DNA of 64,000 bases from positions 663,501-727,500 of the forward strand of contig NC_014836.1 of NCBI RefSeq assembly GCF_000177635.2. Reading direction: 5' to 3'. Source of the stretch: Desulfurispirillum indicum S5. Its GTDB lineage: Bacteria > Chrysiogenota > Chrysiogenetes > Chrysiogenales > Chrysiogenaceae. Below the pieces are notes generated by a model. It had not been told where the DNA came from, ran no database searches, and was given only the letters and a program-made list of their open reading frames with translations. A program made the translations under genes and the position numbers. Shown piece after piece: positions 1,944-38,091 of the stretch. Position 1 is the stretch's first letter. Every line of letters begins with the position of its first letter.

Positions 1944-4304
1944 TTACTCGGGGAGCGTTCTGGCGATAAGGACGACACTGATGTCGTCGGGAATGATCCC
2001 GTTATCAAATCTTGCCAATGCTCTGGAAAAGTCGGCCATGATGTCTTCCAGATGGTGATGCCTGGCGAAGGAATCGTGGAGATTCTCTGTGGTGTAGCCG
2101 GTGCTTTCACAGAGGGCATCGGAGTAGAGCAGGATGCTGTATTCCGAGGGCAGCTTCAGGGAGCTGCTGCGCAGTGGCAGACTGTGCCTGGTGAATGGGG
2201 GGTTGTTCCCACGGGCCGTCGTAATGGTCTGGCTGGCGCTGTCCTTGACCAGGATGGGGTACATGCCGCAACTGATGTACTCCAGGGTGTTTTCAGCCTG
2301 ATCCAGGCAGGCGAAGGTAAAGGAGATAAGCTCTTCTTTGACCATGTACTGGCAGATATGACGGGTGTAGGCGTGGGCAACCTCAGTGAAGTGAAAGGTG
2401 TTAGTGGCGAGGGCACTCTGCAGCAGGGTATGCAGATGGGAAGCTGAGAGAAGCGAGGTGACCGAAGCGCTCAGTCCTTTGCCCATGCTGTCTATGATAT
2501 AGAAGAAAGTGCGCTGGTCGTTGATGCGGTAGATGCCGTAGATATCGCCGCTGAGTATCTCCTGTGGCTGATAGTGAACCTGGCAGTGGATGCCGCTGAG
2601 CAGGGCGGAATCATTATGAATGATGAGCTGTTCCTTGGCAAAGGCATCGCGCTGTTGCTGCTCATCGTGATCACGTTTGGCCTTCAGGGCAAAAAACTCC
2701 TTTTCGCGCTGACGCTGCTCCTGCTCAATCTTGTGCTGGAGCTCGTGGCGGGTGCGAATGTGCTGGGCGTAATATTCCAGGTGTCTGCGCAGTTGCTGAA
2801 CCTCCAGGGGCTTTTTGACAAAACGGTTGATGCCGGCGTCAATGGCCTCAAGGATAAGGTCGCGATCAGAGTAGGCGGTGAGCAGGATGATGGGAGTGTT
2901 GGTGTCTTCCCTTCGGATCTGGTGAGCCATCTCCAGGCCAGTCATGCGGGGCATCTGGATGTCGCTGATAATGATGTCGGGCTTGTGCTGATGGTAGGTG
3001 TTGAGCCCTTCAAGGCCATTCGTGGCCACAAAGACGGTTCTGGTCATGGGCAGGCGGTTCAGAATGCGGCGGTACAGCTCCAGGGAGCCTTCATCATCGT
3101 CCACCAGCAGCAGGCGGATATCGCCCTTATGGGTATCTTCGTGGCTGAGGGGCCTGAGATCATCAAGACTCAGGTTGCTGACGGGTGCCATGCCTGTGAG
3201 CAGAGTGGCCTTGCGCCCGCTGTGTGAATAGTAGATGCCGTCACAGTAATCCTTGACGCAGTAGATGCCTCGACCGCGGTAAGTGTGGCTGCTCAGGCTG
3301 CGGGCCCGGCCCGTATAGGGTTGGTAGTCAAAGCCGCTGCCCGAATCCTCCACCTGGATCATCAGGAGATTCTGGGTGGCAAAGACCTCTACCGAGACGC
3401 TGATGGTGCCCGTGGCCTGCAGGCCCTGGGTGTGCAGGAAAGATTCGTAATCCTCCTGGCGGATCAGCTCCTCTTTGCGATCGCTGCCGATGCCGAGAAT
3501 GCCATGCTCAAAGGCATTGAACAATACCTCATGGAATGCAAAGGCGGCCTGATCAATTTTTTCCCGGGGCAGCTGGAGTTCCTCCAGGGTTTGCTGCAGC
3601 TGATCTTCCATTGTGCTCAGGTCTTCAAGGGTGAACTGTTTTTGGGTGAGGTGCAGGCAGTGTTGCGCTGCTTCATGGCTCAGGAAGTTCATGGCAATGC
3701 AGGAGAGCTTACTGGTATCGCCTGGCAGCTCCGGTGAGCTCAGCAGTTCAAAGACGTGGCGGGGGAGGTGGATGCGGTGGAAGTTCCGGGCAACAATCTC
3801 CAGCGCGTCATCGGCATTGCACAGGATAATGCTTTCCACCTCCTGGAGGGGGCAGACCTGGACTCGGAAGAGCGCCTCCGGGTTGGTAAAGTCCTCCTGC
3901 TGGTCCATGGACCAGAAAATCTGCTGGGAGCGGTTGCTCAGGAGTATGCGGTGGCTGCTGAAGTTGGCCAGGACAATATTGCTGTCCTTTTCGTTGATGA
4001 GGAAAAAAATGCCCTGATGACCGCTGTGCAATTCATCCATGCAGCGATAGCGCAGCGAAGTGAGGAAACCGGTCAGGGTGAAACGCCTGTCGGTGGAATG
4101 CCACTGCTCAAAAGAATTGCTGACCATGTGCATGAGCCCGGGGTCGCTGAGCAGGCAGCCGAAGGTGAAGGAGTCTCCTTTGGCGATAAAGATGTCCTCA
4201 GTGCCTTCGCGGGAATAGCTGTCCACGATATAGGTGCCGTGGAAAGCGCAGAGGCTCTCCTGTTGGGGCGGGATATCTGAAAGCACAGAGGTGAAAGAAT
4301 ACAT
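1944..4304 (-). CDS. HATPase / receiver / SpoIIE-type PP2C phosphatase signalling protein
   Basis: A large cytoplasmic signalling protein of 786 residues from the ATG at 4304; the frame stays open to 4415. In order: an N-terminal region of about 200 residues that looks like a degenerate PP2C/SpoIIE fold; a GHKL ATPase of the anti-sigma kinase kind at about 245-380 (N box HEVLFNAFEHG, then DSGSGF and RGRGIY); a receiver domain at about 390-510 (VDDDE, phospho-acceptor Asp near 448 in SDIQMP, then TAYS and KKP); a charged coiled coil at about 515-575; and a SpoIIE phosphatase to the end (LSGDIYG, DSMGKG, SCGMYP, YSDAL, PDDIS). These are the parts of a partner-switching system that controls an STAS anti-anti-sigma protein. 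One STAS gene lies at 8.7-9.0 kb. The start is uncertain because no candidate has a strong ribosome binding site. Confidence 0.85.
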   Translation of the reverse strand: MYSFTSVLSDIPPQQESLCAFHGTYIVDSYSREGTEDIFIAKGDSFTFGCLLSDPGLMHMVSNSFEQWHSTDRRFTLTGFLTSLRYRCMDELHSGHQGIFFLINEKDSNIVLANFSSHRILLSNRSQQIFWSMDQQEDFTNPEALFRVQVCPLQEVESIILCNADDALEIVARNFHRIHLPRHVFELLSSPELPGDTSKLSCIAMNFLSHEAAQHCLHLTQKQFTLEDLSTMEDQLQQTLEELQLPREKIDQAAFAFHEVLFNAFEHGILGIGSDRKEELIRQEDYESFLHTQGLQATGTISVSVEVFATQNLLMIQVEDSGSGFDYQPYTGRARSLSSHTYRGRGIYCVKDYCDGIYYSHSGRKATLLTGMAPVSNLSLDDLRPLSHEDTHKGDIRLLLVDDDEGSLELYRRILNRLPMTRTVFVATNGLEGLNTYHQHKPDIIISDIQMPRMTGLEMAHQIRREDTNTPIILLTAYSDRDLILEAIDAGINRFVKKPLEVQQLRRHLEYYAQHIRTRHELQHKIEQEQRQREKEFFALKAKRDHDEQQQRDAFAKEQLIIHNDSALLSGIHCQVHYQPQEILSGDIYGIYRINDQRTFFYIIDSMGKGLSASVTSLLSASHLHTLLQSALATNTFHFTEVAHAYTRHICQYMVKEELISFTFACLDQAENTLEYISCGMYPILVKDSASQTITTARGNNPPFTRHSLPLRSSSLKLPSEYSILLYSDALCESTGYTTENLHDSFARHHHLEDIMADFSRALARFDNGIIPDDISVVLIARTLPE

Positions 4305-24255: not shown

Positions 24256-25134
24256 GTGCGGGTATTGCGCAACAGCTCCAGTGCTCCCTGCAGCTCGCTG
24301 CGGGCCGGGGGCGTGGTGCCGCTGCTCTACCTTCCCCAGACCATGGAGGAGTGTGTGCAGATCCTGCAGCGGCATCCCTCCATCCCCGTGCTTGGGCGGG
24401 GCAGCAATACCGTCCTTTCCGCGCGCAATCCGGTGCCAGCGCTCCTGGTGGCCAGCCAGCTTGACCACATCAGCATCAGCGATGAAACCCTTGTAGCCAA
24501 GACCGGTACCATGCTGGCACGCCTTGCGACCCTGGCCGTACGTCAGGGCTATGGCGGGTTTGCACCACTGGCCGGTATTCCCGGCACCATCGGCGGTGCA
24601 CTGGTGATGAATGCGGGCTGCTATGGCGTGCATATCAGCGATCGCCTGCTGTGGGTGGAAATCTGGCGGGACGGCGAGATCGTCTGCCTGCAGCGTCATC
24701 AGATGGAGTTCGGCTACCGCTGCAGCTCCTTTGATCCGGCCAGGGAAGTGATTCTGCGCGCCGCCTTCGACATCTCCCTGCGCGTCGATGAGAGCCAGCA
24801 GCTTCGCCAGTGTCTGGAGCGCAAGAAAGCCTCACAACCCACCAGCCTCCCCTCCCTTGGCTCCGTATTTCGCAACCCCTCTGCTTCGGTGTCCAGCTGG
24901 CAGCTCCTGGAAAAGTGCGAGTTGAAGGGCATGCGGCTCGGCAGTATGCAGATCAGTGAAAAACACGCCAACTTTATCGTCAACCTCGAGCGCGGCAGCG
25001 CCTGGCCCGATGACTATGTCGTCCTGGCCCGTATGGCGGCCAACCGCGTATATCAGCGCACCGGGATACTTCTTGAGCCCGAATTCCGCTACCTCAGCAA
25101 GGAAGGGTACTTCTATGGAAAAGAAATTCTTTGA
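24256..25134 (+). CDS. murB: UDP-N-acetylenolpyruvoylglucosamine reductase
   Basis: FAD- and NADPH-dependent reduction giving UDP-MurNAc. GTG 24256 with GAGGA upstream gives 292 residues starting MRVLRNSSSAPCSSLRAGG, which matches the family; the longer frame runs into murC. Motifs: VLGRGSNT (FAD binding), GFAPLAGIPGTIGGALVMNAG, YRCSSFD, and SLGSVFRNP with the catalytic Ser. The catalytic Glu region is EKHANFIVN. The end overlaps the next gene by 20 bases. Confidence 0.95.
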   Translation: MRVLRNSSSAPCSSLRAGGVVPLLYLPQTMEECVQILQRHPSIPVLGRGSNTVLSARNPVPALLVASQLDHISISDETLVAKTGTMLARLATLAVRQGYGGFAPLAGIPGTIGGALVMNAGCYGVHISDRLLWVEIWRDGEIVCLQRHQMEFGYRCSSFDPAREVILRAAFDISLRVDESQQLRQCLERKKASQPTSLPSLGSVFRNPSASVSSWQLLEKCELKGMRLGSMQISEKHANFIVNLERGSAWPDDYVVLARMAANRVYQRTGILLEPEFRYLSKEGYFYGKEIL

Positions 25135-26980
25135 CGACCTGCAGAAGCTCTACGACCTCTCCCACCAGCAGTACGTGAAACGGGCCAGCTGGTACCGGGT
25201 GCTGGACGGCGAGTTTCCGGCCCGTCGACAGCAGATAGACGCTTTTCTCACCTCCATTGACCTGGAACCAACCCGTGAGCACCGTCTGGCAATCCTCACC
25301 CGCCTGATCCACCTGCGCACCGATGCACTGGTGCAGGCCCTGAAGCAGGCCGGACACGATCAGCCCCACATCAACCGGGCGAAGGCCGAAGCCTATGCCT
25401 GGAGCGCCCGCCTTCACCAGGACGACCACCGGGCTCTGCTGGAACATGTGGACGAGCAGAAGCTGCTGACGCCCTACTACCGGGCTTTTCTGCACGGTGT
25501 GCATCGCACCGGCCTGGAGTTCAGCCACTGGCATCCCCAGTGGACGCGCCATATCATCGAAACCGTCAACCCCAGCCTTGAAGAGGAACACGGCTCGGAG
25601 GCCGTCCTGTGGCTGCGGGAGCAGGGACTGCTGGACCCGGGACATGACGGGGAAGAGGCCGACCGCTGCTACTCTGCGCTGGTGAAACAGGGACAGCGGT
25701 GGCACAGCCTCGCCTATGCCGAAGTGTTTCCCACCCAGATACAGCGCATTGTGGCCAGTCTGCACCAGTTTATGGATGAACTGGCCCGCAACACTGATGG
25801 GGTTTTCGGCCTGGAGCTTGTGCACCGGCATTATCTTCAGGCGCTGGTGGATGCTTTCAGCGAGCGGGATACCGCACAGCTGGTCCGCCGCTGGGCCCAT
25901 GTGGATCGCTGCTGGATGGCCGACAGCGGCCCGCTGCAGATCGGTCATCCCCTGGAATACTACGAGGATCACTACCGCAAGGCCGTGGCGCCGGAGTGGG
26001 ATCTGCGTATGATCAATCCCGCCCTGCAGGAAGAAAATCATCGCCAGCAACAGGTGCAGGCGATGTTTGACCAGCTGAGCCAGCAACTGCAGGCCCATGG
26101 GCACCCAGCCATCAGGGCCAGCCAGGAAAACCTGCGCCGCACCCGGCTCTTTCTCGGCCGCCCCCTGCTCTACTATGGCTCCGACCTGGAAGGGCTCTTT
26201 TCGGCCCAGGTGGTTCCCAACGACGAGGTAATCAGTGCCAGCTGCGGAAAAAAAATATTCGCCTTTGCCGATATGGTGCTGGAGGCCCAGCGCAGCCGAC
26301 CCTTTATGAAGATCCACCGCCTGGTTTACGGTGATGATTTTGAACAGCGCTTCCGCCACTACCTCTTCTGTCAGCCCGGTCAGTGGCACCAGGTGTACGA
26401 CGCCCTGACTGTCGGCCACGAGTATGGCCATGTGCTCTGGATGGATGCCGAGACGGAAACCGCCATGAACCGCACGGGCAACTTCAAGAATATTGAGGAG
26501 TTCAAGGCCACCGCAGGGGGGCTGGTGACCCTCTTCGAGCAACAGGCTGACGATACGCAGCTGATCGCCCGCGCCGTCGATGACACCATCCGGCGCAGTG
26601 TCGGGCTGATTGCCTGGATGGAAAGCGATGAAGTACTGCCCTACTACGTGGAGGGCCTGCTGCACCTGCACGGCCTCTTTGCGAGCGGAATCCTGAGCTT
26701 TCAGGGCCAGCAGCTGCGCATCTGCACCGAGAGTGCCACCATTGGCACCCTTGTCAGCTGGTATCAGGACATCTACCGGCGCCTGGCACGGCACTACCTC
26801 GCAAAGCAGGACGCCATGGAGTTCCTGCAGGAATACGTCTGCCGGGAAGAAAAACGCCTGCTTCCCAGGCAGGAGCAGGCGCGCCGTTTCGTGGAATATT
26901 ACTGGAAGCTGTACCAGGAATCAGGCTGCGTCGTGGACGATGAGGATCACCCCGATCGCTGGCGCGCACTGAGCCAGTAG
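25115..26980 (+). CDS. CiaB-like protein with HExxH metalloprotease-type motif
   Basis: A 621-residue soluble protein from ATG 25115, which overlaps murB by 20 bases. Most of it is helical without signal peptide or membrane segments. Near residue 435 it has VGHEYGHVLW, an HExxH zinc-binding motif, followed by FKNIEEFKATAGGLV, which supplies acidic residues that could complete a gluzincin-type site. Length and these motifs resemble the invasion protein CiaB family of Campylobacter and relatives. I am moderately sure of that family and regard the name as misleading for a free-living bacterium. Cotranscription with murC-murB hints at a wall-related or peptidase role. Confidence 0.7.
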   Translation: MEKKFFDDLQKLYDLSHQQYVKRASWYRVLDGEFPARRQQIDAFLTSIDLEPTREHRLAILTRLIHLRTDALVQALKQAGHDQPHINRAKAEAYAWSARLHQDDHRALLEHVDEQKLLTPYYRAFLHGVHRTGLEFSHWHPQWTRHIIETVNPSLEEEHGSEAVLWLREQGLLDPGHDGEEADRCYSALVKQGQRWHSLAYAEVFPTQIQRIVASLHQFMDELARNTDGVFGLELVHRHYLQALVDAFSERDTAQLVRRWAHVDRCWMADSGPLQIGHPLEYYEDHYRKAVAPEWDLRMINPALQEENHRQQQVQAMFDQLSQQLQAHGHPAIRASQENLRRTRLFLGRPLLYYGSDLEGLFSAQVVPNDEVISASCGKKIFAFADMVLEAQRSRPFMKIHRLVYGDDFEQRFRHYLFCQPGQWHQVYDALTVGHEYGHVLWMDAETETAMNRTGNFKNIEEFKATAGGLVTLFEQQADDTQLIARAVDDTIRRSVGLIAWMESDEVLPYYVEGLLHLHGLFASGILSFQGQQLRICTESATIGTLVSWYQDIYRRLARHYLAKQDAMEFLQEYVCREEKRLLPRQEQARRFVEYYWKLYQESGCVVDDEDHPDRWRALSQ

Positions 26981-27005: not shown

Positions 27006-27878
27006 CTATGAGCGACCCACCAGGGTGATGTTGCGCGCCTCGGGATTATCGCCGTTGGCTGCTTTGACCAGTTCAAATTCGAAAATCAGATTACGATCAG
27101 GCAGGTGACGCGGATTGATGTCGGAAGCCAGGTTCGAATCGCGGAAGTAGGCCGTGCGGTAGGGCGAGTCCTCGCGGCGGGAGTCGGTGATCCACAACCC
27201 GGAGCTGACCTTCTGCAGAAATCGCATGAAACCGAAGTTCTGGCTGTCATCGTGGTGGTAGCAGAAGCCTCGCACCCGCGAGCCAAGTTCTCCCCACTGA
27301 TTGCTGCGGCGATCCACCGAGTCGATGGGCAGCAGGTTCGGAATCAGGTAGCCGGACATGAACATGTCGGACTCTTTTTTCAGATCCGATGAAATATTCT
27401 GGAACGCCATGGTCTCGACACGGCAGCCCTTGTTCTGCAGCGCCCGCACCACCTGCACAAAGTCGCCATCACCCGTGACCAACAGGACGCGGTCGAGGTT
27501 TTCCGACTGCAGCAGCGCGTCCACCGCCATGTCCAGATCGGCGTTGGCCTTGCCAAAACGGTTGCCGCTCTCATCCACATACCACTTCACCGGTTTTTCA
27601 ATAACCTTGTAGCCGAAATCCCGCAAAATAGCGTAGAAGTTGGTCATTTTGTATTTGTAGGGGGCATCCTTGGAGGCGCGATCCACATCAAAACTGACAT
27701 AGGCGTTCAGGCGTACCAGCTCAGCGCCATCGCGGCAGGCAAACTCCCGCAGCACTTCGTAGCGCATGCCGTAACCGCCATTGCGCACCAGGTTGGCCAC
27801 ATCAACATAGACACCCACCTTCGCGTTGGACTTGGAGAGCCCCGGGGGAATGTCGGAAGAAAAGCTCATCATTGCCAT
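27006..27878 (-). CDS. NYN-domain (LabA/DUF88) nuclease with C-terminal cold-shock-like domain
   Basis: Residues about 18-190 form a NYN/PIN-like fold: VGVYVDVANLVRNG (first acidic site), KANADLDMAVDALL, LLVTGDGDFVQVVRAL, AFQNISSDLKKESDMF. Such proteins are predicted metal-dependent RNases. Residues about 200-285 resemble a cold-shock OB fold, with NFGFMRFL in the first RNA-binding strand, a middle YRTAYFRDSNL, and an ending FEFELVKAANGDNPEARNITLV like the last strands of CspA. The pairing suggests an RNase that recognises single-stranded RNA. It is monocistronic and converges on the murC unit. Confidence 0.82.
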   Translation of the reverse strand: MAMMSFSSDIPPGLSKSNAKVGVYVDVANLVRNGGYGMRYEVLREFACRDGAELVRLNAYVSFDVDRASKDAPYKYKMTNFYAILRDFGYKVIEKPVKWYVDESGNRFGKANADLDMAVDALLQSENLDRVLLVTGDGDFVQVVRALQNKGCRVETMAFQNISSDLKKESDMFMSGYLIPNLLPIDSVDRRSNQWGELGSRVRGFCYHHDDSQNFGFMRFLQKVSSGLWITDSRREDSPYRTAYFRDSNLASDINPRHLPDRNLIFEFELVKAANGDNPEARNITLVGRS

Positions 27879-28365: not shown

Positions 28366-28441
28366 GGGGCTATGGCGCAGCTGGGAGCGCGCTTGAATGG
28401 CATTCAAGAGGTCGGGGGTTCGATCCCCCCTAGCTCCACCA
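28366..28441 (+). tRNA. tRNA-Ala (anticodon GGC)
   Basis: 76 bases: acceptor GGGGCTA pairs with TAGCTCC (one G-T), anticodon stem CTTGA/TCAAG with loop ATGGCAT, T loop TTCGATC, discriminator A and encoded CCA. The accessory island begins after it. Confidence 0.95.
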
Positions 28442-28500: not shown

Positions 28501-29147
28501 TGCGTGTTGTTGTCGATTTACGCCGCTTCCAGGGCATCGACTCTGCCCTGATCACCTCACCTTTTCAGGGAACACTCGCACCCCGCTTCTCTTTCGCCTG
28601 TATACCAAGACGCACGATGCGCCGACTGAACGCATATAGTGCGGGCCGAAAGACAGAGAAGTCATAGATAGCAAAGCGTAAAATTCTCCGTATCCTTACC
28701 CCATTCCCGGGACCTTGTCCAGACTCCTGCATTTTTCCTGCAACCACTGTTTGGCGATCTCATCGGTAAACGGGTTGATGCTCTTTATGATTCCATCAAA
28801 CAGCTCATTGATGTCCATGGTCGGCTCGACTGTTTGTCCGATTTTCGTTGATAATTCTGATAGCCTCCCTGATTACTTATCGGGTGGTTTCAAGATGTGT
28901 TGGTTCAGGTCGCATTACAAATTGGGTATTCTTTGCAGATTATTCGGCCAAAATGGCACATGGCCTTTAGTGTCGATTGAATAGGGTAAATTCAGCCAAA
29001 ATCGTCAAAGAGCGTTTGACTTCGCACGACTAACTTATATAGTAAGGAGGTTTTGCAGTTTTGGGGTGCGTCCAGCACTCTCCCGTTTCGCCTCTGGTAG
29101 ACGTGACGGCAAACCAAAACGCCCGTGGAGTTTTAAGCATAGACGAG
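28501..29147. other. probable decayed DNA, no confident gene
   Basis: No ORF here has a ribosome binding site or recognisable product, apart from the doubtful 40-codon frame at 28696-28818. The stretch lies between tRNA-Ala and the restriction-system remnants and is probably eroded accessory DNA. Confidence 0.45.
28696..28818 (-). CDS. possible 40-residue ORF or gene remnant
   Basis: The frame MDINELFDGIIKSINPFTDE... is protein-like (amphipathic helices, no rare bias) and ends at VPGMG. It lacks a clear ribosome binding site. It may be the start of a once longer gene. Family unknown. Confidence 0.25.
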   Translation of the reverse strand: MDINELFDGIIKSINPFTDEIAKQWLQEKCRSLDKVPGMG

Positions 29148-29348
29148 ATGGAAGATCGCTGGTAGTCGATAACTGAGATCTGCAAGTATCTTAGGGTAAG
29201 TAATGTCAATGTGTACAAGTGGATCGACACGCATGGCATTCCTGCGCACCGCATGGGACGCTTCTGGAAGTTCAAGAAAAGCCATGTGGATGCCTGGGTC
29301 GAATCTGGTGGCGCGGCGGAACCTGGACTGGGAACGGAAAAACCATGA
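29148..29348 (+). pseudogene. broken excisionase-type HTH protein of a type I R-M locus
   Basis: A frame of 67 codons with TAG as codon 6 (29163-29165). Read through, it gives MEDRW-stop-SITEICKYLRVSNVNVYKW..., then PAHRMGRFWKFKKSHVDAWV, a MerR/excisionase-type helix-turn-helix. Small HTH proteins of this form commonly precede hsdR. Its end overlaps the hsdR fragment start (ATGA), supporting a former operon. An ATG downstream of the TAG could still give a shortened product. Confidence 0.7.
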
Positions 29349-29658
29349 GCTACAACGAACAGGAGGCCTGTTTCTATCTGATTGAGCCTGTATTGCGGGA
29401 AAAGGATACAACAGCCACCAGTGGCTCAAGATGGAGACCCCCGCTCCGGTGGAGCCGACTGGTCTGAAAGGCCGCCGACGTAAGGGGGCAGACCGCACCG
29501 ACTATCTACTCTGCGTGCAGGCGGGCGATATGCCGAAAGCTTTGCCAATGGGCGTGCTCGAAGCAAAAAAGGAGACGGAATATCTCCTTATGGGCATGCA
29601 GCAGGCCAAGGGTATGCCGATTGCCAGCGCTTCGGGGTGAATATGTGTCCACCATATC
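29345..29658 (+). pseudogene. hsdR: N-terminal fragment of type I restriction enzyme subunit R, frameshifted
   Basis: Begins MSYNEQEACFYLIEPVLREK, then shifts frame near 29400 (one base appears lost) into SHQWLKMETPAPVEP, GRRRKGADRTDYLL and VLEAKKE. These match the PD-(D/E)XK N-terminal domain of EcoEI-type HsdR (catalytic ...EAK). A second shift near 29610 leads to YADCQRFGVN, and the gene then stops at repeat A. The helicase and the rest of the enzyme are absent. Confidence 0.8.
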
Positions 29659-29814
29659 AACAGCTTGCTGAAATACCTCAAAAGACGCAGGCAATTGAAA
29701 AATGCTCAGGTGCAAGGCGCTCGCGGAGCAAGGAATGAAGCGTACTCCCCGTACGTTGCAGTGACGCGCGACGGCGAGCAACACCGCAGATGAGGGTTTT
29801 TCAGCAGCCTGCTA
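29659..29814 (-). repeat. repeat family A, full copy at a deletion junction
   Basis: 156 bases, reverse orientation of 17431-17588, both terminal inverted repeats present. It separates the hsdR 5' fragment from a 3' scrap of another restriction gene. Confidence 0.85.
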
Positions 29815-29816
29815 AA

Positions 29817-30005: not shown

Positions 30006-31409
30006 ATGTTGAAAGAATTACGAATTCAAAACTTCAAAGGCTGGAAGGATACCGGCACCATTCGTATGGCTCCCATCTCCCTGTTTTTTGGTGCTAACAG
30101 CTCTGGCAAATCCAGTATTGGCCAGTTCCTGATGATGCTGAAGCAGACCGTGGAGTCACCGGACAGAAAGGCGGTTTTCTATCCGGGTGGCAAAAACTCG
30201 GCAGTTCAGCTTGGATCTTATCAGGAGATGGTTTTTCGCCGCGATCCGGAAAATAAGATCATCTTTGACTATCGGTGGTCGTTGCCGGATATACTGAAGT
30301 TCAAAGACCCGGTGACCGGTCAAACCTTTTCTGGCGATAATCTCGCTTTTCATGGCAAAGTTGGTTTAGGGGATAAGGACCAGCACACCCTTGTGCTTGA
30401 TCAACTGAAATACGAGTTGCTTGAGGAAGAGGAATCCCGACTGTCCATCGGCATGGAGCGAAAATCGGACACCAAGTCCGAGTATAAAGTCGATGCGACC
30501 AATTACCCGTTGAAACGCAAGCAGGGGCGTGCATGGTCACCCGGCGCACCGGTCCGGTTTTACGGTTTTCCTGATGAGGTGGTTGCCTATCACCAGAATG
30601 CGGATTTCGTTCAGGCTTTGAATTTGCGCCATGAAAAATTCTACCGTTCACTCTGTTATCTTGGGCCGCTGCGCACCAAGGCGGAACGTCTGTATTCATG
30701 GACCGGTATGGAGCCTGAAAGTGTCGGCTATGCTGGGGAAAATACCGTCGCGGCGATTCTTGCGGCACGAAACCGGAAAATCAGTCTGGGCTACAAAAGG
30801 CCAGCCAAACCATTTGAGGAGATCATTGCCCTCAAGCTCAAGGAAATGGGACTGATCGAGGAATTCAAGGTCAACCCGATATCGGAGCAGCGGCAGGAGT
30901 ACGAGGTAAAGGTCCGCACCAAGGGGTCGAGAGACTGGGTCGATCTTCCGGACGTCGGTTTTGGCATATCCCAGGTGCTGCCGGTTCTGGTGCAGTGTTT
31001 CTATGCTCCGGCCGGGTCGATCATCCTTATGGAACAGCCGGAGATCCACCTGCATCCGAATGCGCAATCGGCGCTGGCCGATGTGATGATCGATGTCATC
31101 AACTCTAGAGAAAACGGGTCGGACAGGGATATTCAGTTGGTTATCGAGACCCACTCGGAGCATTTCCTGCGTCGCCTGCAGCGCCGTATCGCCGAAGATG
31201 CCGTCCCACAGGAAAAGGTATCGGCCTATTTCGCCAATATCGCCAGGACGCCCGCGACCCTGGAGCCGTTGCAAATCGATATCTTCGGCAACATCCAGAA
31301 TTGGCCGGAGAACTTCTTCGGCGATGAAATGGGCGACATCACCGAGCAGGCAAAGGCCGCCATGAAGAAGCGGATGCAGAAAACCGAAAAGCCGGAGGCC
31401 TCCGCATGA
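30006..31409 (+). CDS. AAA ATPase with DUF3696 C-terminus (conflict-system sensor)
   Basis: A 467-residue SMC/OLD-like ATPase. Walker A is GANSSGKSS (about 29-37), the signature region follows PDVGFGISQVLP, Walker B is IILMEQPEIHLHP (about 338-350), and the H-loop is ETHSEHFLRRL. The C-terminal part (LEPLQIDIFGNIQNWPENFF) is characteristic of DUF3696 proteins. Ribosome binding site AGGAGAGAGG precedes the ATG. First gene of a tight operon; its stop overlaps the start of the PIN-like gene (ATGA). ATPases of this class act as invader sensors in many two-gene defence systems (OLD-, PARIS-, Septu-like); a role here is inferred. Confidence 0.87.
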   Translation: MLKELRIQNFKGWKDTGTIRMAPISLFFGANSSGKSSIGQFLMMLKQTVESPDRKAVFYPGGKNSAVQLGSYQEMVFRRDPENKIIFDYRWSLPDILKFKDPVTGQTFSGDNLAFHGKVGLGDKDQHTLVLDQLKYELLEEEESRLSIGMERKSDTKSEYKVDATNYPLKRKQGRAWSPGAPVRFYGFPDEVVAYHQNADFVQALNLRHEKFYRSLCYLGPLRTKAERLYSWTGMEPESVGYAGENTVAAILAARNRKISLGYKRPAKPFEEIIALKLKEMGLIEEFKVNPISEQRQEYEVKVRTKGSRDWVDLPDVGFGISQVLPVLVQCFYAPAGSIILMEQPEIHLHPNAQSALADVMIDVINSRENGSDRDIQLVIETHSEHFLRRLQRRIAEDAVPQEKVSAYFANIARTPATLEPLQIDIFGNIQNWPENFFGDEMGDITEQAKAAMKKRMQKTEKPEASA

Positions 31410-31936
31410 GCCTGCCCAAGAAATGCCTGGTGGATACCAATGTGCCCAAGACGGCCAATCTCGCCACCCAGCCGGACGCGGACTCCGACGTATCCGATGC
31501 CTGCGTGCTGGCCTGCGTCGAGGCGGTTGAATATGTCATTAAAAAGCGTGGCCTGATCATCGATGCGGGAGACGAAATTTTCAATGAGTACCGGCAGCAG
31601 CTCTCCATGAAGGGACAACCCGGCATGGGCGATGCCTTTATGAAATGGGTGAACGACCACCGGTATAACCCTGAATATTGCGACAGAGTGGCCATCACCA
31701 GCAATGGCGACTCATACGAAGAGTTTCCCACGCATGACGATCTGAACGATTTCGACAGATCGGACCGCAAGTTTGTCGCCGCAGCCAACGCCCACGTGGA
31801 GAAGCCGCCCATATTGCAGGCCACAGACAGTAAATGGTGGGGATGGAAGGATGCCCTGGCTGAGGTTGGGATTACCGTTCAGTTCCTTTGCCCGGAATAC
31901 ATCGAAGCCAAATATACCGAGAAGATGGGGACGTGA
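31406..31936 (+). CDS. PIN-like nuclease partner of the DUF3696 ATPase
   Basis: A 176-residue protein with a PIN-type pattern: CLVDTNVPKT (Asp 10), IDAGDEIFNEY (acidic residues at about 53-61), FDRSDRKFVAAA (Asp 117/120), and a late acidic position at ATDSKWWGW (Asp 141). PIN proteins are metal-dependent RNases. The fold call is from motif reading, not a search. It overlaps the ATPase gene by four bases and the RNA ligase gene by four bases (GTGA), so the three are made together. Confidence 0.7.
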   Translation: MSLPKKCLVDTNVPKTANLATQPDADSDVSDACVLACVEAVEYVIKKRGLIIDAGDEIFNEYRQQLSMKGQPGMGDAFMKWVNDHRYNPEYCDRVAITSNGDSYEEFPTHDDLNDFDRSDRKFVAAANAHVEKPPILQATDSKWWGWKDALAEVGITVQFLCPEYIEAKYTEKMGT

Positions 31937-32619
31937 AAGAGGACTTTTTCAAATTTCCCTCAACGCCTCATCTGGCGACCATGCCGGGAGTTGACATCAG
32001 GGGTGATAAGGTTCTGACAGAATCAGAACGCGATGCATTCCTGACGCATGAGGTGACGGTAGAAGAAAAAGTAGACGGCGCAAACATGGGGCTCTCGTTT
32101 GATGCGCATGGAAATATCCGTGCCCAGAACAGGGGGGCTTATTTGCATTTGCCCTGCTCGGGACAGTGGAAAAAACTCGGCGAATGGTTGGCGATCCACA
32201 CCGATACGCTTTTCGAGCACCTCTCTGACCGGTACATCCTGTTTGGCGAGTGGTGTTATGCCCAGCATTCGATTTTCTATGATCGCTTGCCCGACTGGTT
32301 TCTTGCTTTCGATATTTATGACCGAGAGGCAGGTCGGTTTCTGGCCACGGCGCGCCGGGATCGGCTATTATATGAGATGCATATCCCCAAAGTGCCAGGC
32401 ATTGCACGCGGGCGGTTCACCTATCCCGAAATTCAGAAACTCTTATCGCAATCAAAGCTGACCGATCAGCCTGCTGAAGGGATTTATCTGCGAATTGATC
32501 ACGGTGACTGGCTTGAACAACGGGCCAAACTTGTTCGCCCCACATTTATCCAGGCGGTCGAGCAGCACTGGTCGCGCTCCGCCATCAGGCCGAATCGGCT
32601 AACGCATGATATCCTATGA
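31933..32619 (+). CDS. RNA ligase (Rnl2-type nucleotidyltransferase)
   Basis: ATP-dependent ligase or nick sealer of 228 residues from GTG 31933. All nucleotidyltransferase motifs are visible: motif I EKVDGANMG (adenylated Lys about 46), Ia RAQNRG, III LFGEWCYA, IIIa FLAFDIYD, IV EGIYLRI, and V RAKLVRP. No extra C-terminal domain, so it is a minimal enzyme. The frame continues upstream but GTG overlapping the PIN-gene stop is the natural coupled start. Its pairing with a predicted RNase suggests cleave-and-reseal chemistry or repair of the host RNA; inferred. Confidence 0.87.
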   Translation: MKEDFFKFPSTPHLATMPGVDIRGDKVLTESERDAFLTHEVTVEEKVDGANMGLSFDAHGNIRAQNRGAYLHLPCSGQWKKLGEWLAIHTDTLFEHLSDRYILFGEWCYAQHSIFYDRLPDWFLAFDIYDREAGRFLATARRDRLLYEMHIPKVPGIARGRFTYPEIQKLLSQSKLTDQPAEGIYLRIDHGDWLEQRAKLVRPTFIQAVEQHWSRSAIRPNRLTHDIL

Positions 32620-32914
32620 AAAAATCGAGCAAGAAAAACCGACCTGGACCGATCTCAAGTGCCAGCTTGCCGATCTCGACCGTCCAGCGCTGCTGGGCCT
32701 GATTCAGGACCTGTGCGCCGCCAGCAAGAACAATCAGGCTTTTCTCCATGCCCGCTTCGCCCTGGGCGAGGATGTGCTCGAACCGTACAAGTTCACCATT
32801 GACCGCTGGGTTTACCCGGATGTCATGCGCAATCAGGATATCTCGGTTGCCAAGGCCAAGAAGGCAATCTCTGATTACAGGAAAGCCATAGCTCGGCTAC
32901 TGCGGCATGGATGA
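32606..32914 (+). CDS. DUF6155-like protein, N-terminal part
   Basis: 102 residues, overlapping the RNA ligase end by 14 bases. The helical text (WTDLKCQLADLDRPALLGLI, AKKAISDYRKAI) resembles DUF6155 proteins. After RKAI the sequence leaves the family and soon stops, while the expected continuation appears in another frame in the next ORF. Either a recent frameshift or deletion split one gene, or two polypeptides are made. Function unknown. Confidence 0.55.
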   Translation: MISYEKIEQEKPTWTDLKCQLADLDRPALLGLIQDLCAASKNNQAFLHARFALGEDVLEPYKFTIDRWVYPDVMRNQDISVAKAKKAISDYRKAIARLLRHG

Positions 32915-33107
32915 CGAGGGTTATTTCAATGCACTGGTGCGCATGTTCGAGCAGGCGCTGAAGGCGATTACGGCGCTTGAGCCAGGCCAGAAGGAAGACT
33001 TTGTCGAGCGGCTTGAACGTGTCCGGCACAAAGGCCACAACTGGGGCTGGGGCGTTGGCGATGATATGGACAATCTGATGGTGGAGTATGGATTTGCCGA
33101 AGAGTGA
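32907..33107 (+). CDS. DUF6155-like protein, C-terminal part
   Basis: 66 residues (MDDEGYFNALVRMFEQALKA..., GHNWGWGVGDDMDN) in a different frame from the ORF above and overlapping it by eight bases. It looks like the C-terminal half of the same family, with the central segment missing. No clear ribosome binding site. Its end overlaps the primase-helicase start by 20 bases. Confidence 0.5.
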   Translation: MDDEGYFNALVRMFEQALKAITALEPGQKEDFVERLERVRHKGHNWGWGVGDDMDNLMVEYGFAEE

Positions 33108-35505
33108 CAAGAGCCTGAATGAACAAGATGAACTTCGGCGTCTGCGCGAGGAGAACGCCCGCCTCAAAAATCTGCTGACCCAGCACGGTATCGCTTGGGA
33201 AGAACCTGCCATCCCTGAACCTGTCCCCGACCCACCTGAATTCATATCAGTCCCAACCCAGTTCACCACCGACGACAAGATCGCCCTGTTCCGCCGGCTT
33301 TTTCGGGGGCGGGAGGATGTCTATCCGCAGCGCTGGGACTCGGCCAAGGGCACGTCAGGCTATTCACCAGCCTGTGGTAACGAGTGGAAGCCCGGCATCT
33401 GCCACAAGCCTCGGGTGAAATGCGGCGACTGCAACCAGCGCCAATTGCTGCCGGTGACCGATCAGGTGATCTATGACCATTTGGCAGGGAAACAGACCAT
33501 CGGCGTCTATCCACTCCTGAGCGACGACAGCTGCTGTTTTTTGGCGGTTGACTTCGATGAGGCCGACTGGCGGGAGGATGCCAAAGCTTTCATGCAATCC
33601 TGTCGCGAACTCGGCATTCCGGCGTCGCTGGAGATTTCCCGCTCCGGAAATGGCGCTCACGCCTGGATCTTTTTTGCCGAGCCGGTTCCGGCCCGCGAGG
33701 CCCGGCAGCTCGGGACCGCACTGATCAGCCACACCTGCGACCGCACCCGGCAATTATCCCTGGCCAGCTACGATCGGCTGTTTCCCAACCAGGACACCAT
33801 GCCCAAGGGTGGCTTCGGCAATCTGATCGCGCTGCCCCTGCAGAAACAGCCGAGGGAATCAGGGCGCAGCGTCTTCGTTAATGAACAATTGCAACCCCAT
33901 TCGGACCAGTGGGCTTTTCTGTCATCCATCCGCCCCATGTCCCGGCGGGACCTGGAAGACGCCATCCTGCGGGCCAGCGGCAGCCGCCATCCCCTGGATG
34001 TGGCCTTTGCCGCCGAGGAAGAAGACAGCAAGCCATGGCAGCGTCCTTCACCTGTGCCCGCCCGGATTGCTGGCCCATTGCCGGAATCGCTGACCCTGGT
34101 GCTGGCCAACCAGATTTTTATCGCCAAAGCCGATCTGCCACAACCGCTGGCCAACCGCCTGATCCGCCTCGCCGCCTTCCAAAATCCCGAGTTTTACAAG
34201 GCCCAGGCCATGCGCCTGCCGGTATGGAACAAGCCGCGCATCATCGGCTGCGCCGAGAATTTCCCCCAGCATATCGGCCTGCCCCGTGGCTGCCTCGATG
34301 CGGCACTCGACCTGTTGCAGGAGAATGACATCCATCCGGAGCTGCAGGACGAGCGCTTGGCCGGACGGAAAGTGACGGCCAAGTTCACCGGGACCTTGCG
34401 CAAGGACCAGAAGGCAGCGGTACGGGAGATGCTCAAACACGATGTCGGCGTGCTCTGCGCCCCGACAGCCTTCGGCAAGACCGTCACTGCAGCAGCCCTG
34501 ATCGCCCGGCGCAAGGTCAGTACACTGGTGCTGGTCCATCGCACTGAACTGCTGCGCCAATGGCAGGAACGGTTGACCGGATTTCTTGAATTTCCGAAAG
34601 GAAGTTTGGGTGTCATCGGCGGCGGCAAGAAAAAACCGTCCGGCAAGATCGACATCGCCGTCATGCAGTCACTGTCACGGCGCGAAGACCTGGGCGAACT
34701 GCTCGACCCGTACGGCCAGATCATCATCGATGAATGCCACCACCTGTCGGCGTTTTCCTTCGAGGCGATCCTCAAACAAGCCAAGGCGAAATTCGTGGTG
34801 GGCCTGACCGCCACGCCCATACGCCGCGACGGGCATCAGCCAATCATCTTCATGCAGTGCGGGCCGATCCGTCACAGCGCCGCCAGACCGGAAACCGTCC
34901 CGACGCAACTGGAAGTCTGGCCGAAAATGATACCTGCGCCTGAAATCCCGCCGGACTCGCCAATTCAGGATGTGTTCCGCATCCTCGCGGGCGATGCGAG
35001 CCGCAACCAGTGTATTGTCGGGGATGTGCTGGCCGCCTACCGCTCAGGGCGAAAGGTGTTGGTGCTTACCGAGCGAACGGATCATCTGCCGCTGTTGCAG
35101 GAGGCGCTGGGGAATGAGGTCGAACACTGCTTTGTCCTGCATGGCCGATTGTCGAAGAAACAGCGAACGGAAGTGTTTGCCGAGCTGGAGGCATTGGATG
35201 AGTCAGCCCCGAGGGTACTACTCGCCACCGGCCGCCTGATCGGCGAGGGCTTCGACCATCCGCCGCTCGACACTCTTGTGCTGGCTATGCCGATCTCCTG
35301 GAAGGGAACCTTGCAGCAATACGCAGGGCGTTTGCACCGTGAGCATGTCGACAAACAGGATGTGCGCATCTATGATTACGCCGAGACCGATCAGCCGCAA
35401 CTCGCCCGAATGTGGGACAAACGCCAACGCGGTTACCGGGCCATGGGATACGAAATTAAACCGATGGAGGGCGTTATTTTAGGAAACGGTAACATATCAG
35501 AATAG
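33088..35505 (+). CDS. AEP-TOTE primase / DEAD-like helicase fusion
   Basis: An 805-residue protein. Residues 13-35 are a coiled coil (DELRRLREENARLKNLL). About 58-290 is an archaeo-eukaryotic-type primase of the TOTE conflict-system kind: a four-Cys cluster (Cys 96, 105, 112, 115) probably binding zinc, catalytic AVDFDEAD (Asp 155/157) and SGNGAHAW (186-193). From about 440 a superfamily 2 helicase follows: APTAFGKT (about 457), IIDECHH (about 547), LTATPIRRDG, and C-terminal LLATGRLIGEGFDHPP and YAGRLHRE. The combination suggests priming or repair on unwound nucleic acid. Last gene of the operon. Confidence 0.87.
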   Translation: MDLPKSDKSLNEQDELRRLREENARLKNLLTQHGIAWEEPAIPEPVPDPPEFISVPTQFTTDDKIALFRRLFRGREDVYPQRWDSAKGTSGYSPACGNEWKPGICHKPRVKCGDCNQRQLLPVTDQVIYDHLAGKQTIGVYPLLSDDSCCFLAVDFDEADWREDAKAFMQSCRELGIPASLEISRSGNGAHAWIFFAEPVPAREARQLGTALISHTCDRTRQLSLASYDRLFPNQDTMPKGGFGNLIALPLQKQPRESGRSVFVNEQLQPHSDQWAFLSSIRPMSRRDLEDAILRASGSRHPLDVAFAAEEEDSKPWQRPSPVPARIAGPLPESLTLVLANQIFIAKADLPQPLANRLIRLAAFQNPEFYKAQAMRLPVWNKPRIIGCAENFPQHIGLPRGCLDAALDLLQENDIHPELQDERLAGRKVTAKFTGTLRKDQKAAVREMLKHDVGVLCAPTAFGKTVTAAALIARRKVSTLVLVHRTELLRQWQERLTGFLEFPKGSLGVIGGGKKKPSGKIDIAVMQSLSRREDLGELLDPYGQIIIDECHHLSAFSFEAILKQAKAKFVVGLTATPIRRDGHQPIIFMQCGPIRHSAARPETVPTQLEVWPKMIPAPEIPPDSPIQDVFRILAGDASRNQCIVGDVLAAYRSGRKVLVLTERTDHLPLLQEALGNEVEHCFVLHGRLSKKQRTEVFAELEALDESAPRVLLATGRLIGEGFDHPPLDTLVLAMPISWKGTLQQYAGRLHREHVDKQDVRIYDYAETDQPQLARMWDKRQRGYRAMGYEIKPMEGVILGNGNISE

Positions 35506-35934
35506 AAGCGATTGCTATTGGGTTTGCTTGCAGAGAAGAGGAATAACTTAACTTTCGCACCCCCGAAACGGCAGGTTGCCTGCACCAACCCTGATGCCAT
35601 GCTGTAATGGCGGCAATGGTTCTCCACAGACTGTGTCGCTTGACATTCCGGTTCCATTACTGAGGAGTTTTCCTTCGTTCGCTTGCCTGAAACTGGGACT
35701 GCAACCAACCGCCCTCCCTGGCTTTGAGTTTACGGTTGCCGCCGTCATGGCGGCAACCCTGTGGGTCCATAGCGTTATGCAGGCAATTGAAAAGCTCTCA
35801 GGTGCAAGGCGCAAGCAAGGTGAGGAGTGAGGCGTACTTCCTGTACGTCGCAGCGACGAGCACTGGCGAGCAATGCCGCAGATCAGGCTTTTCAGCAGCC
35901 TGTTAAGGAGTAACCTATCTTATGACCCTTGCAT
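35506..35934. other. intergenic with repeats, no gene
   Basis: Contains a block at 35590-35620 (CCCTGATGCCATGCTG...) that recurs at 40771-40808, and a partial repeat A at 35777-35907. ORFs are short and unconvincing. Confidence 0.5.
35777..35907 (-). repeat. repeat family A, partial copy
   Basis: About 130 bases matching 29659-29814 from GCAGGCAATTGAAAA to CAGCAGCCTGTT; the first terminal repeat is missing. Confidence 0.8.
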
Positions 35935-36910: not shown

Positions 36911-37399
36911 ATGTCTAAAGTGCAATCATGGGAAGTCTCAGATGCTTTCTGGCAAAGAGTTGAGCCTTTGCTGCCAATCCAGCAAAGAGATCTTGACAAG
37001 GTCTACAAGCGCAAGCCTGGTGGTGGGCGCAAGCGACTTAACCCCAGGAAGGCGTTTTCCGGCATTGTCTATGTTCTGCGCACCGGTTGTCAGTGGAAAG
37101 CGATACCCAAGGAGCAGTTTGGTTGCGCCAGTGCCGTGCACAAGTACTTCATTGAGTGGAGTAAGGCCGGTGTATTCGAAGCTATTTGGCGTCAAGGGCT
37201 GGCTGAGTACGACGAGATGGAGGGAATTGCCTGGGAGTGGCAAAGCATAGATGGCGGAATGTACAAAGCACCAATGGCTCTTGAAACCGTAGGGAAGAAC
37301 CCGACGGATCGGGGAAAAAAACGGGAGCAAGCGTCATGTCCTGGTGGACGGTCGTGGCGTCCCGTTGTCCATCGTCGTAACCGGAGCGAACCGGCATGA
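36911..37399 (+). CDS. IS5-family transposase, first frame
   Basis: 162 residues with the DUF4096-type N-terminus (WEVSDAFWQRVEPLLP, GGRKRLNPRKAFSGIVYVLRTG) and the first catalytic Asp in SIDGGMYKAP. At a run of seven A (about 37315-37321) the family sequence moves to the other frame. Losing one A gives TDRGKNGSKRHVLVDGRG exactly, so the product is made by slippage or the gene is damaged. Confidence 0.85.
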   Translation: MSKVQSWEVSDAFWQRVEPLLPIQQRDLDKVYKRKPGGGRKRLNPRKAFSGIVYVLRTGCQWKAIPKEQFGCASAVHKYFIEWSKAGVFEAIWRQGLAEYDEMEGIAWEWQSIDGGMYKAPMALETVGKNPTDRGKKREQASCPGGRSWRPVVHRRNRSEPA

Positions 37400-37748
37400 T
37401 GTGAGCCAGCTTGAAGCTGTTCTTGATGGCGTAGTCTTCGAGAAGCCTGCAGAGCAGGAGCAGCATCTTTGCGCAGATTGTGGCTACAAGGGAAAGCAGG
37501 CGCTCAGCAGCATTCTTCAGCGCGGATACATACCCCATGTAAAGCAGCGAAAAGAAGAGATCGAGGACAAGAAGCGTGACCCATCAAAGAAGGCGAGGCG
37601 CTGGATAGTGGAAGCATCTATTTCCTGGTTCAACCGTTTCAGGAAGATTCATGTGCGCTTTGAGAAGCTTGAGGTCACTCACTACGGGTTGACGTGTCTT
37701 GCGGCAGCCATAATCACATACAGGAAAATCGGCGTAATTTATGGATAA
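37344..37748 (+). CDS. IS5-family transposase, second frame
   Basis: 134 residues from an internal ATG; the true product is a fusion with the first frame. It holds the second catalytic Asp (TGANRHDV) and the Glu of the DDE triad in RRWIVEASISWFNRFRKI, reaching the right terminal repeat. Confidence 0.85.
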   Translation: MDGRGVPLSIVVTGANRHDVSQLEAVLDGVVFEKPAEQEQHLCADCGYKGKQALSSILQRGYIPHVKQRKEEIEDKKRDPSKKARRWIVEASISWFNRFRKIHVRFEKLEVTHYGLTCLAAAIITYRKIGVIYG

Positions 37749-37752
37749 GTTC

Positions 37753-38017
37753 TAAATACTCCGAACAGGCGGTCAAGGATCTTCACGGATTCAACAGCGT
37801 CGATCGCCAGCTCATTGTCAAAAAAATCCATTATTTGCGGGATAACTTCAATTCTCTGAAGCAGACCAGGAAAGTCACTGAACTGAAGGGAAGCCGCTTC
37901 TCCGGGCAATATCGCTTTATCGTAGCCCGCAAGATTCGGGTGCTTTTTCGCGTTGATGGCGATGTGTTGACGCTCCTGGTGTTGCGGGTTGGCCTGCGCA
38001 AGTCCATTTACACGTGA
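37753..38017 (+). pseudogene. RelE/ParE-type toxin, 5' end displaced by the IS
   Basis: Encodes KYSEQAVKDLHGFNSVDRQL..., then KGSRFSGQYRFIVARKIRVLF and LLVLRVGLRKSIY, a RelE/ParE mRNA-interferase or gyrase-poison fold. The first two codons (GTG CTT at 36821) are separated by the IS. Read from inside the IS (ATG 37694) a hybrid of 107 residues is possible. No antitoxin gene is visible downstream, where repeats begin. Confidence 0.75.
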
Positions 38018-38091
38018 CAGGCTGCTGAAAAGCCTCACGCACGCCTTGCACCTGAGAACTTCTCAATTGCCTGTGTGTTTTGAGGTATTGA
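38017..38091 (+). repeat. repeat family A, internally deleted copy
   Basis: GACAGGCTGCTGAAAAGCC followed directly by the GCACCTGAGAACTTCTCAATTG segment and TTTTGAGGTATTGAAAG; the middle is missing. It abuts repeat B. Confidence 0.75.

Follow-up and report, generated by a model that had tools for sequence, protein, structure and literature searches.

A mobile candidate defence cassette, HEC-03 extended by a predicted RNA ligase in Desulfurispirillum indicum S5

The genome of Desulfurispirillum indicum S5, a single contig of 2.93 Mb, carries an operon of four intact genes and one broken gene within the 64,000-nucleotide stretch analyzed here (NC_014836.1, positions 663,501 to 727,500; referred to below as the window). 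The first three genes of this operon, encoding an ATPase, a probable PIN-like nuclease, and a predicted ATP-dependent RNA ligase, are a conserved, mobile candidate defence cassette that extends the catalogued candidate system HEC-03; genes 1 and 2 were already known as HEC-03, and the RNA ligase is new as its third component. All three lie on the forward strand, with the 467-residue ATPase at positions 30006 to 31409, the 176-residue PIN-like candidate at 31406 to 31936, and the 228-residue ligase, which has a GTG start codon, at 31933 to 32619. Genes 1 and 2 overlap by the sequence ATGA, genes 2 and 3 by GTGA, and genes 3 and 4 by 14 bases. The ratio of nonsynonymous to synonymous substitution rates (dN/dS) ranges from 0.04 to 0.26 across the four intact genes, i.e., all of them are under purifying selection. 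A preliminary description of this DNA had proposed five overlapping frames acting as one system; the frames of genes 1 to 3 and 5 and the 14-base overlap proved correct, whereas gene 4 is not an intact frame and stops at 32914.

The ATPase and gene 2 proteins are full-length matches to PADLOC HEC-03B (1.3e-130) and HEC-03A (1.2e-32), respectively, and they are encoded next to each other. Part of the set, which the preliminary description did not recognize as a named defence system, therefore already has a name in PADLOC. HEC designates the “Hma-embedded candidate” group (PMC12988326). Our literature search, which did not extend to the preprint defining HEC, returned no experimental paper on HEC-03 function, and it returned none on a set of ATPase, PIN, and ligase genes. 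The cassette differs from HEC-03 in its RNA ligase, for which PADLOC holds no model, and in the systems that host it here, which are mainly BREX and type I. The ATPase also matches NsnB (4e-57), PDC-M55A (2.5e-52), and AriA (8e-28), and its Pfam domains are AAA_15, AAA_21, and a DUF3696 tail (9e-9). Key positions of the Walker A motif GANSSGKSS (residues 29 to 37) and of the H-loop ETHSEH are kept in at least 95% of 49 homologues. Although the NsnB match is a likeness to Menshen, the partners in that system are DUF262 and OLD-nuclease proteins (PMC10952713), and membership was ruled out since genes 2 and 3 have no Nsn match at E≤0.1. A side observation concerns loci L080 and L115, where an insertion of about 315 bases in the HEC-03 ATPase resembles a transposase remnant and the PIN and ligase genes are intact.

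To follow the cassette across genomes, we scanned about 85,000 species genomes for the ligase, which yielded 34 loci. The order ATPase-PIN-ligase is kept in 27 of them (ligase identity, 48 to 94%); the conserved neighbourhood that the preliminary description had proposed looking for is therefore present for genes 1 to 3. Four-base overlaps connect the ATPase and PIN genes in 33 of 43 distinct cassettes and the PIN and ligase genes in 31 of the 43. According to record titles, the hosts belong to the Pseudomonadota, Desulfobacterota, Synergistota, Verrucomicrobiota, Cloacimonadota, Nitrospirota, Chlorobiota, and Spirochaetota, and plasmids bearing the cassette in Azotobacter, Aeromonas, Tistrella, and Rhodococcus add the Actinomycetota, for a spread over both plasmids and chromosomes in about ten phyla. 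A search for the ligase cassette in viruses found none. HEC-03A was detected in no other genome among 49 sampled from the phylum of the window, which indicates that the cassette was acquired by transfer. The distances of the ATPase, PIN, and ligase proteins co-vary (Spearman coefficients of 0.82 to 0.88).

The association between the ligase and the ATPase-PIN pair was then read from the opposite side, by searching HEC-03A in about 1,550 genomes drawn from four taxonomic samples. Because these samples were centred on cassette-carrying genomes, the resulting prevalences are slightly high: 8 of 395 genomes in the Desulfobacterota, 6 of 369 in the class of a Nitrosomonas relative, 7 of 388 in the Verrucomicrobiota, and 12 of 395 in the phylum of a Chlorobiaceae relative. 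Except for the centre genomes, loci were chosen independently of the ligase, and leaving out a chance-level match (L092) and the contig-end loci L076, L103, and L104 gave 29 readable loci. The ligase is next to HEC-03A in 22 of these and absent from the other seven (L074, L075, L077, L081, L082, L091, and L100), which makes it an accessory to the ATPase-PIN core. Every readable locus has an adjacent ATPase, albeit an interrupted one in L080. On the ATPase tree, loci with a ligase are clustered with three to four changes, suggesting that the ligase is rarely gained or lost.

Other genes were occasionally seen beside the pair. An HNH gene in Acinetobacter (L071) was considered as a swapped third gene and dropped, since locus L123 carries the ligase and HNH together; HNH is thus probably part of the neighbouring helicase-methylase system. 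A DUF3800 gene (2.8e-13) follows a ligase-less HEC-03 pair (L108, positions 3502 to 4206), and the cassette on the Azotobacter plasmid (L066) has another such gene upstream. The Aeromonas plasmid cassette is followed by a recombinase and a run of metallophosphoesterase/GASH genes (L070, 11778 to 18599), possibly another defence system.

Cassettes were found co-located with known defence genes. In Akkermansia glycaniphila (L043), the cassette is inserted between PglXI and BrxH-PglZ-BrxA, and clustering assigned a similar BREX arrangement to eight more loci (L035, L039, L041, L045, L052, L054, L064, and L120). PglZ-BrxL lies directly upstream of the cassette in L112, and type I restriction (R/S) genes lie upstream in L038, L044, and L058. 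The neighbours are an HmaB-like methylase and a helicase in L117 and a type III methylase in L109. These BREX, type I, and methylase genes at the loci of relatives support the defence setting that had been proposed for the operon.

Gene 2 is a probable PIN nuclease, as judged from its motif and predicted topology. HEC-03A is its only PADLOC match. Searches of Pfam and of PDB sequences returned no match for it, and a profile search with A1 likewise gave nothing. Four or five acidic residues nevertheless occur in the order expected of PIN proteins; among 53 homologues, D10 (correctly named in the preliminary description), E61, D117, and D120 are invariant and D141 is kept in 98%. These acids are roughly co-linear with those of 22 real PIN proteins in an hhalign comparison, for which the reference set was taken from PF01850, the PIN_3 family having yielded too few proteins. 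The AlphaFold (AF2) model of gene 2 has a pLDDT of 95 and the alternating strand/helix order expected for PIN.

The ligase matches Pfam RNA_ligase (PF09414) at 2.9e-33. Foldseek aligned its model to Naegleria and archaeal RNA ligases (E of 4e-7) and to T4 Rnl2 (1.4e-6); the matches include the trypanosome editing ligase REL1, and the best are all RNA ligases. The protein has the nucleotidyltransferase fold with motifs I to V, and K46xDG (whose lysine had also been named correctly), E106, E182, and K199 are invariant, including in three solitary copies found with no cassette (L034, L057, and L062). In one further locus (L063), a member of the same family lies directly downstream of a PDC-M07A (2.6e-167)/PDC-M07B (1e-44) pair, and this PDC-M07B shows a PIN-like acidic pattern. 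PDC-M07 resembles the cassette in combining an ATPase with a small PIN-like protein, yet both belong to other families, and gene 2 has no PDC-M07B match. Although it is a single locus, it suggests that the ligase is an add-on module of ATPase/PIN-like pairs.

We tentatively read genes 1 to 3 as a PARIS-like anti-phage cassette in which a PIN RNase would replace AriB and which would bring its own ligase, and we hold this reading at slightly below even chances. PIN enzymes are metal-dependent. In the cassette, the ATPase would sense infection and license the PIN-like protein, which would cut RNA by metal-dependent hydrolysis, with tRNA or another stable RNA as a guess at its target, and would be expected to leave 5′-phosphate and 3′-hydroxyl ends. 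The ligase is predicted to re-seal such ends with no kinase or phosphatase step, and it could either clean up after leaky cutting while cells are healthy or allow recovery after activation. The gene set with its order and coupling, the kept active sites, the spread of the cassette, its place among defence genes, and the fold of the ligase are established, and RNA as the PIN substrate, gating by the ATPase, and the role of the ligase as antidote or reset are inferred. In PARIS, AriB is held by the AriA ATPase until a phage protein is sensed; once freed, AriB cuts tRNA to give 5′-phosphate and 3′-hydroxyl ends (PMC12409363). The cassette shares with PARIS an ATPase of the AriA clan, albeit one that scores higher against HEC-03B, NsnB, and PDC-M55A, as well as a two-gene layout of sensor ATPase and nuclease and the expected end chemistry. 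It differs in having a PIN-like effector rather than a Toprim/DUF4435 one, with no AriB match, in the DUF3696 of its ATPase, and in the added ligase. An ATPase sensor and a PIN effector had already been suggested in the preliminary description, and its guesses about function seem largely right.

ATP-dependent RNA ligases require 5′-phosphate and 3′-hydroxyl ends, and the cuts of metal-independent RNases must first be treated by healing enzymes (PMC7824862). Together with the metal dependence of PIN enzymes, this suggests a matched cut-and-seal pair for which healing enzymes would be unneeded, and the neighbours scanned included none (kinase, phosphatase, Hen1, or RlaP). A precedent for a ligase undoing a toxin RNase, namely the reversal of MazF cleavage by RtcB, is cited in PMC5408214. 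The optional ligase, the constant company of ATPase and HEC-03A, and the solitary ligases together fit an antidote or reset better than an effector. With somewhat less confidence still, the ligase may be a module joined to at least two ATPase/PIN-like pairs (HEC-03 and PDC-M07), making them self-reversing immune RNases: host or phage RNA cut by the ATPase-gated PIN enzyme would be re-sealed from within the operon, for a reversible arrest rather than suicide.

Several points weigh against the PARIS-like reading. Foldseek returned no significant PIN match for the gene 2 model despite its high pLDDT, the top PIN-type match being 2mdt (probability 0.23, E of 0.39), so that the fold expected by the preliminary description was borne out in strand/helix order but not by a structural match. 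The hhalign score against PIN (24, with a shuffled maximum of 15.5) comes from 8 columns and the DTN motif alone. In L080, the HEC-03 ATPase is split by an insertion and the PIN frame is still open, which suggests that PIN is more likely activated by the ATPase than simply restrained by it. The argument from solitary ligases is based on three or four loci. Finally, the 228-residue ligase has no C-terminal or OB domain in either its sequence or its model. Full RNA sealing usually requires such a domain, and the ligase may perform a partial reaction unless a partner helps.

The missing domain is also what would be expected if the ligase were part of the attack, adenylylating (capping) the 5′-phosphates made by PIN or misjoining fragments and thereby blocking RNA repair. 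T4 Rnl2 cut down to its nucleotidyltransferase domain adenylylates 5′-phosphate ends and seals them poorly. However, REL1 also has no C-terminal domain and receives its OB fold from a partner, the core effect must work without the ligase at the 7 of 29 ATPase-PIN loci that do not have it, and solitary intact ligases are tolerated; we consider this role unlikely.

The substrate could also be DNA: the PIN-like protein would nick it, like the OLD-family nucleases, and nicks in host DNA would be sealed by the ligase. PIN folds include DNA flap nucleases, and some ligase profile matches carry a DNA ligase annotation. Toprim nucleases that cut DNA are frequent partners of ATPases from this clan (PMC12409363). 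Against this stand the Pfam match and the fold matches of the ligase to RNA ligases, along with the DNA-targeting enzymes that the neighbouring systems supply themselves, which leave a DNA version improbable. We regard as equally improbable a cassette for RNA repair, in which RNA broken by other nucleases from phages or toxins would be mended and PIN would only trim ends. Rnl-type ligases do act in phage RNA repair (PMC7824862), but here it is the ligase that is dispensable while ATPase and PIN stay together, no end-healing enzyme accompanies it among the neighbours scanned, and the cassette is embedded in BREX and restriction operons.

A single system of five genes, with the primase-helicase re-priming nucleic acid processed by PIN and the ligase, is very improbable and largely refuted: the genes overlap or nearly touch, purifying selection acts on all intact ones, and a primase adjoins the cassette also in L032, L033, L040/L083, and L112, yet it is missing at most cassette loci, and gene 4 is broken in the window, a stub in L112, and absent in L040. 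Among the 34 ligase loci, the primase is adjacent in just three (L032, L033, and L040), with L112 added later, and gene 4 in two.

Genes 4 and 5 are instead an independent two-gene module, joined to the cassette in a few loci, that landed downstream of it here. Gene 4 (32606 to 33107, +) consists of a 102-residue frame at 32606 to 32914 and a remainder in another frame at 32907 to 33107, and the 20-base overlap with the primase gene reported earlier involves this out-of-frame remainder. Compared with the intact 183-residue homologue in L032, it has a 1-base deletion near its start and a deletion of about 59 to 60 bases inside. The DUF6155-like label given to it was upheld by the L032 homologue, whose match is weak (E of 0.023) and extends over its whole length (residues 13 to 174). 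Gene 5 (33088 to 35505, +; 805 residues) is a full-length AEP-TOTE primase (PF22548, 6.4e-105) fused to an SF2 helicase (ResIII, 2.7e-26), and its partner is gene 4 rather than genes 1 to 3. The preliminary description was right about its family, as it was about those of the ATPase and the ligase, and D155, which it singled out, is the first aspartate of the VDFDEAD motif starting at residue 154. In L164/L193, an intact DUF6155-like gene and a primase gene with the same short overlap follow a type I locus with no cassette. In L167/L194, a second primase with an adjoining gene 4 homologue, again with no cassette, follows a small toxin-antitoxin-like pair. These pairs standing alone, together with the rarity of the primase at cassettes, indicate that the five genes are not one system. 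AEP-TOTE and related primase-helicases are also far commoner than HEC-03A, with AEP-TOTE in 65 of 247 Desulfobacterota genomes compared to 8 of 395 for HEC-03A, and related primase-helicases occur on 339 plasmid records.

Growth arrest by many immune RNases is thought to be irreversible, and the main known role of RNA ligases is that of a phage counter-weapon (e.g., T4 Rnl1 against PrrC). If the PARIS-like reading holds, a ligase inside a host defence operon would put cutting and repair under one switch, and cell-driven reversal of abortive infection could be tested in one small cassette. The ligase active sites are kept across about ten phyla, and a third component is added to a candidate system that is catalogued but unexplained.

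Upstream of the operon, positions 29139 to 29660 (+) hold what is left of a type I restriction locus, as previously described, with an HTH_17 protein (Pfam, 4.2e-14) and a frameshifted HsdR N terminus that matches an annotated type I R subunit (tblastn, 1e-8); a Pfam search of the HsdR fragment gave no match. Just downstream of the operon, an IS5-family transposase is split across two frames (36911 to 37748). A protein with an NYN domain and an NYN match in PADLOC (27006 to 27878, −) adjoins a tRNA-Ala gene (28366 to 28441). Positions 24956 to 26980 encode a full-length member of the DUF7897/“invasion protein CiaB” family (6e-202; NCBIfam, 1e-207), in a genome unlike Campylobacter. A repeat of about 155 bp, GTGCAAGGCG...TTTTTCAGCAGCCTGCTAA, is present in the window at 29660 to 29815, 35779 to 35906, and 38017 to 38089. 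The flanking direct repeats were ruled out as ends of a mobile element, since the family is dispersed through the genome in at least 40 copies (80 to 100% identity), six of which are clustered at genome positions 551.8 to 559.6 kb.

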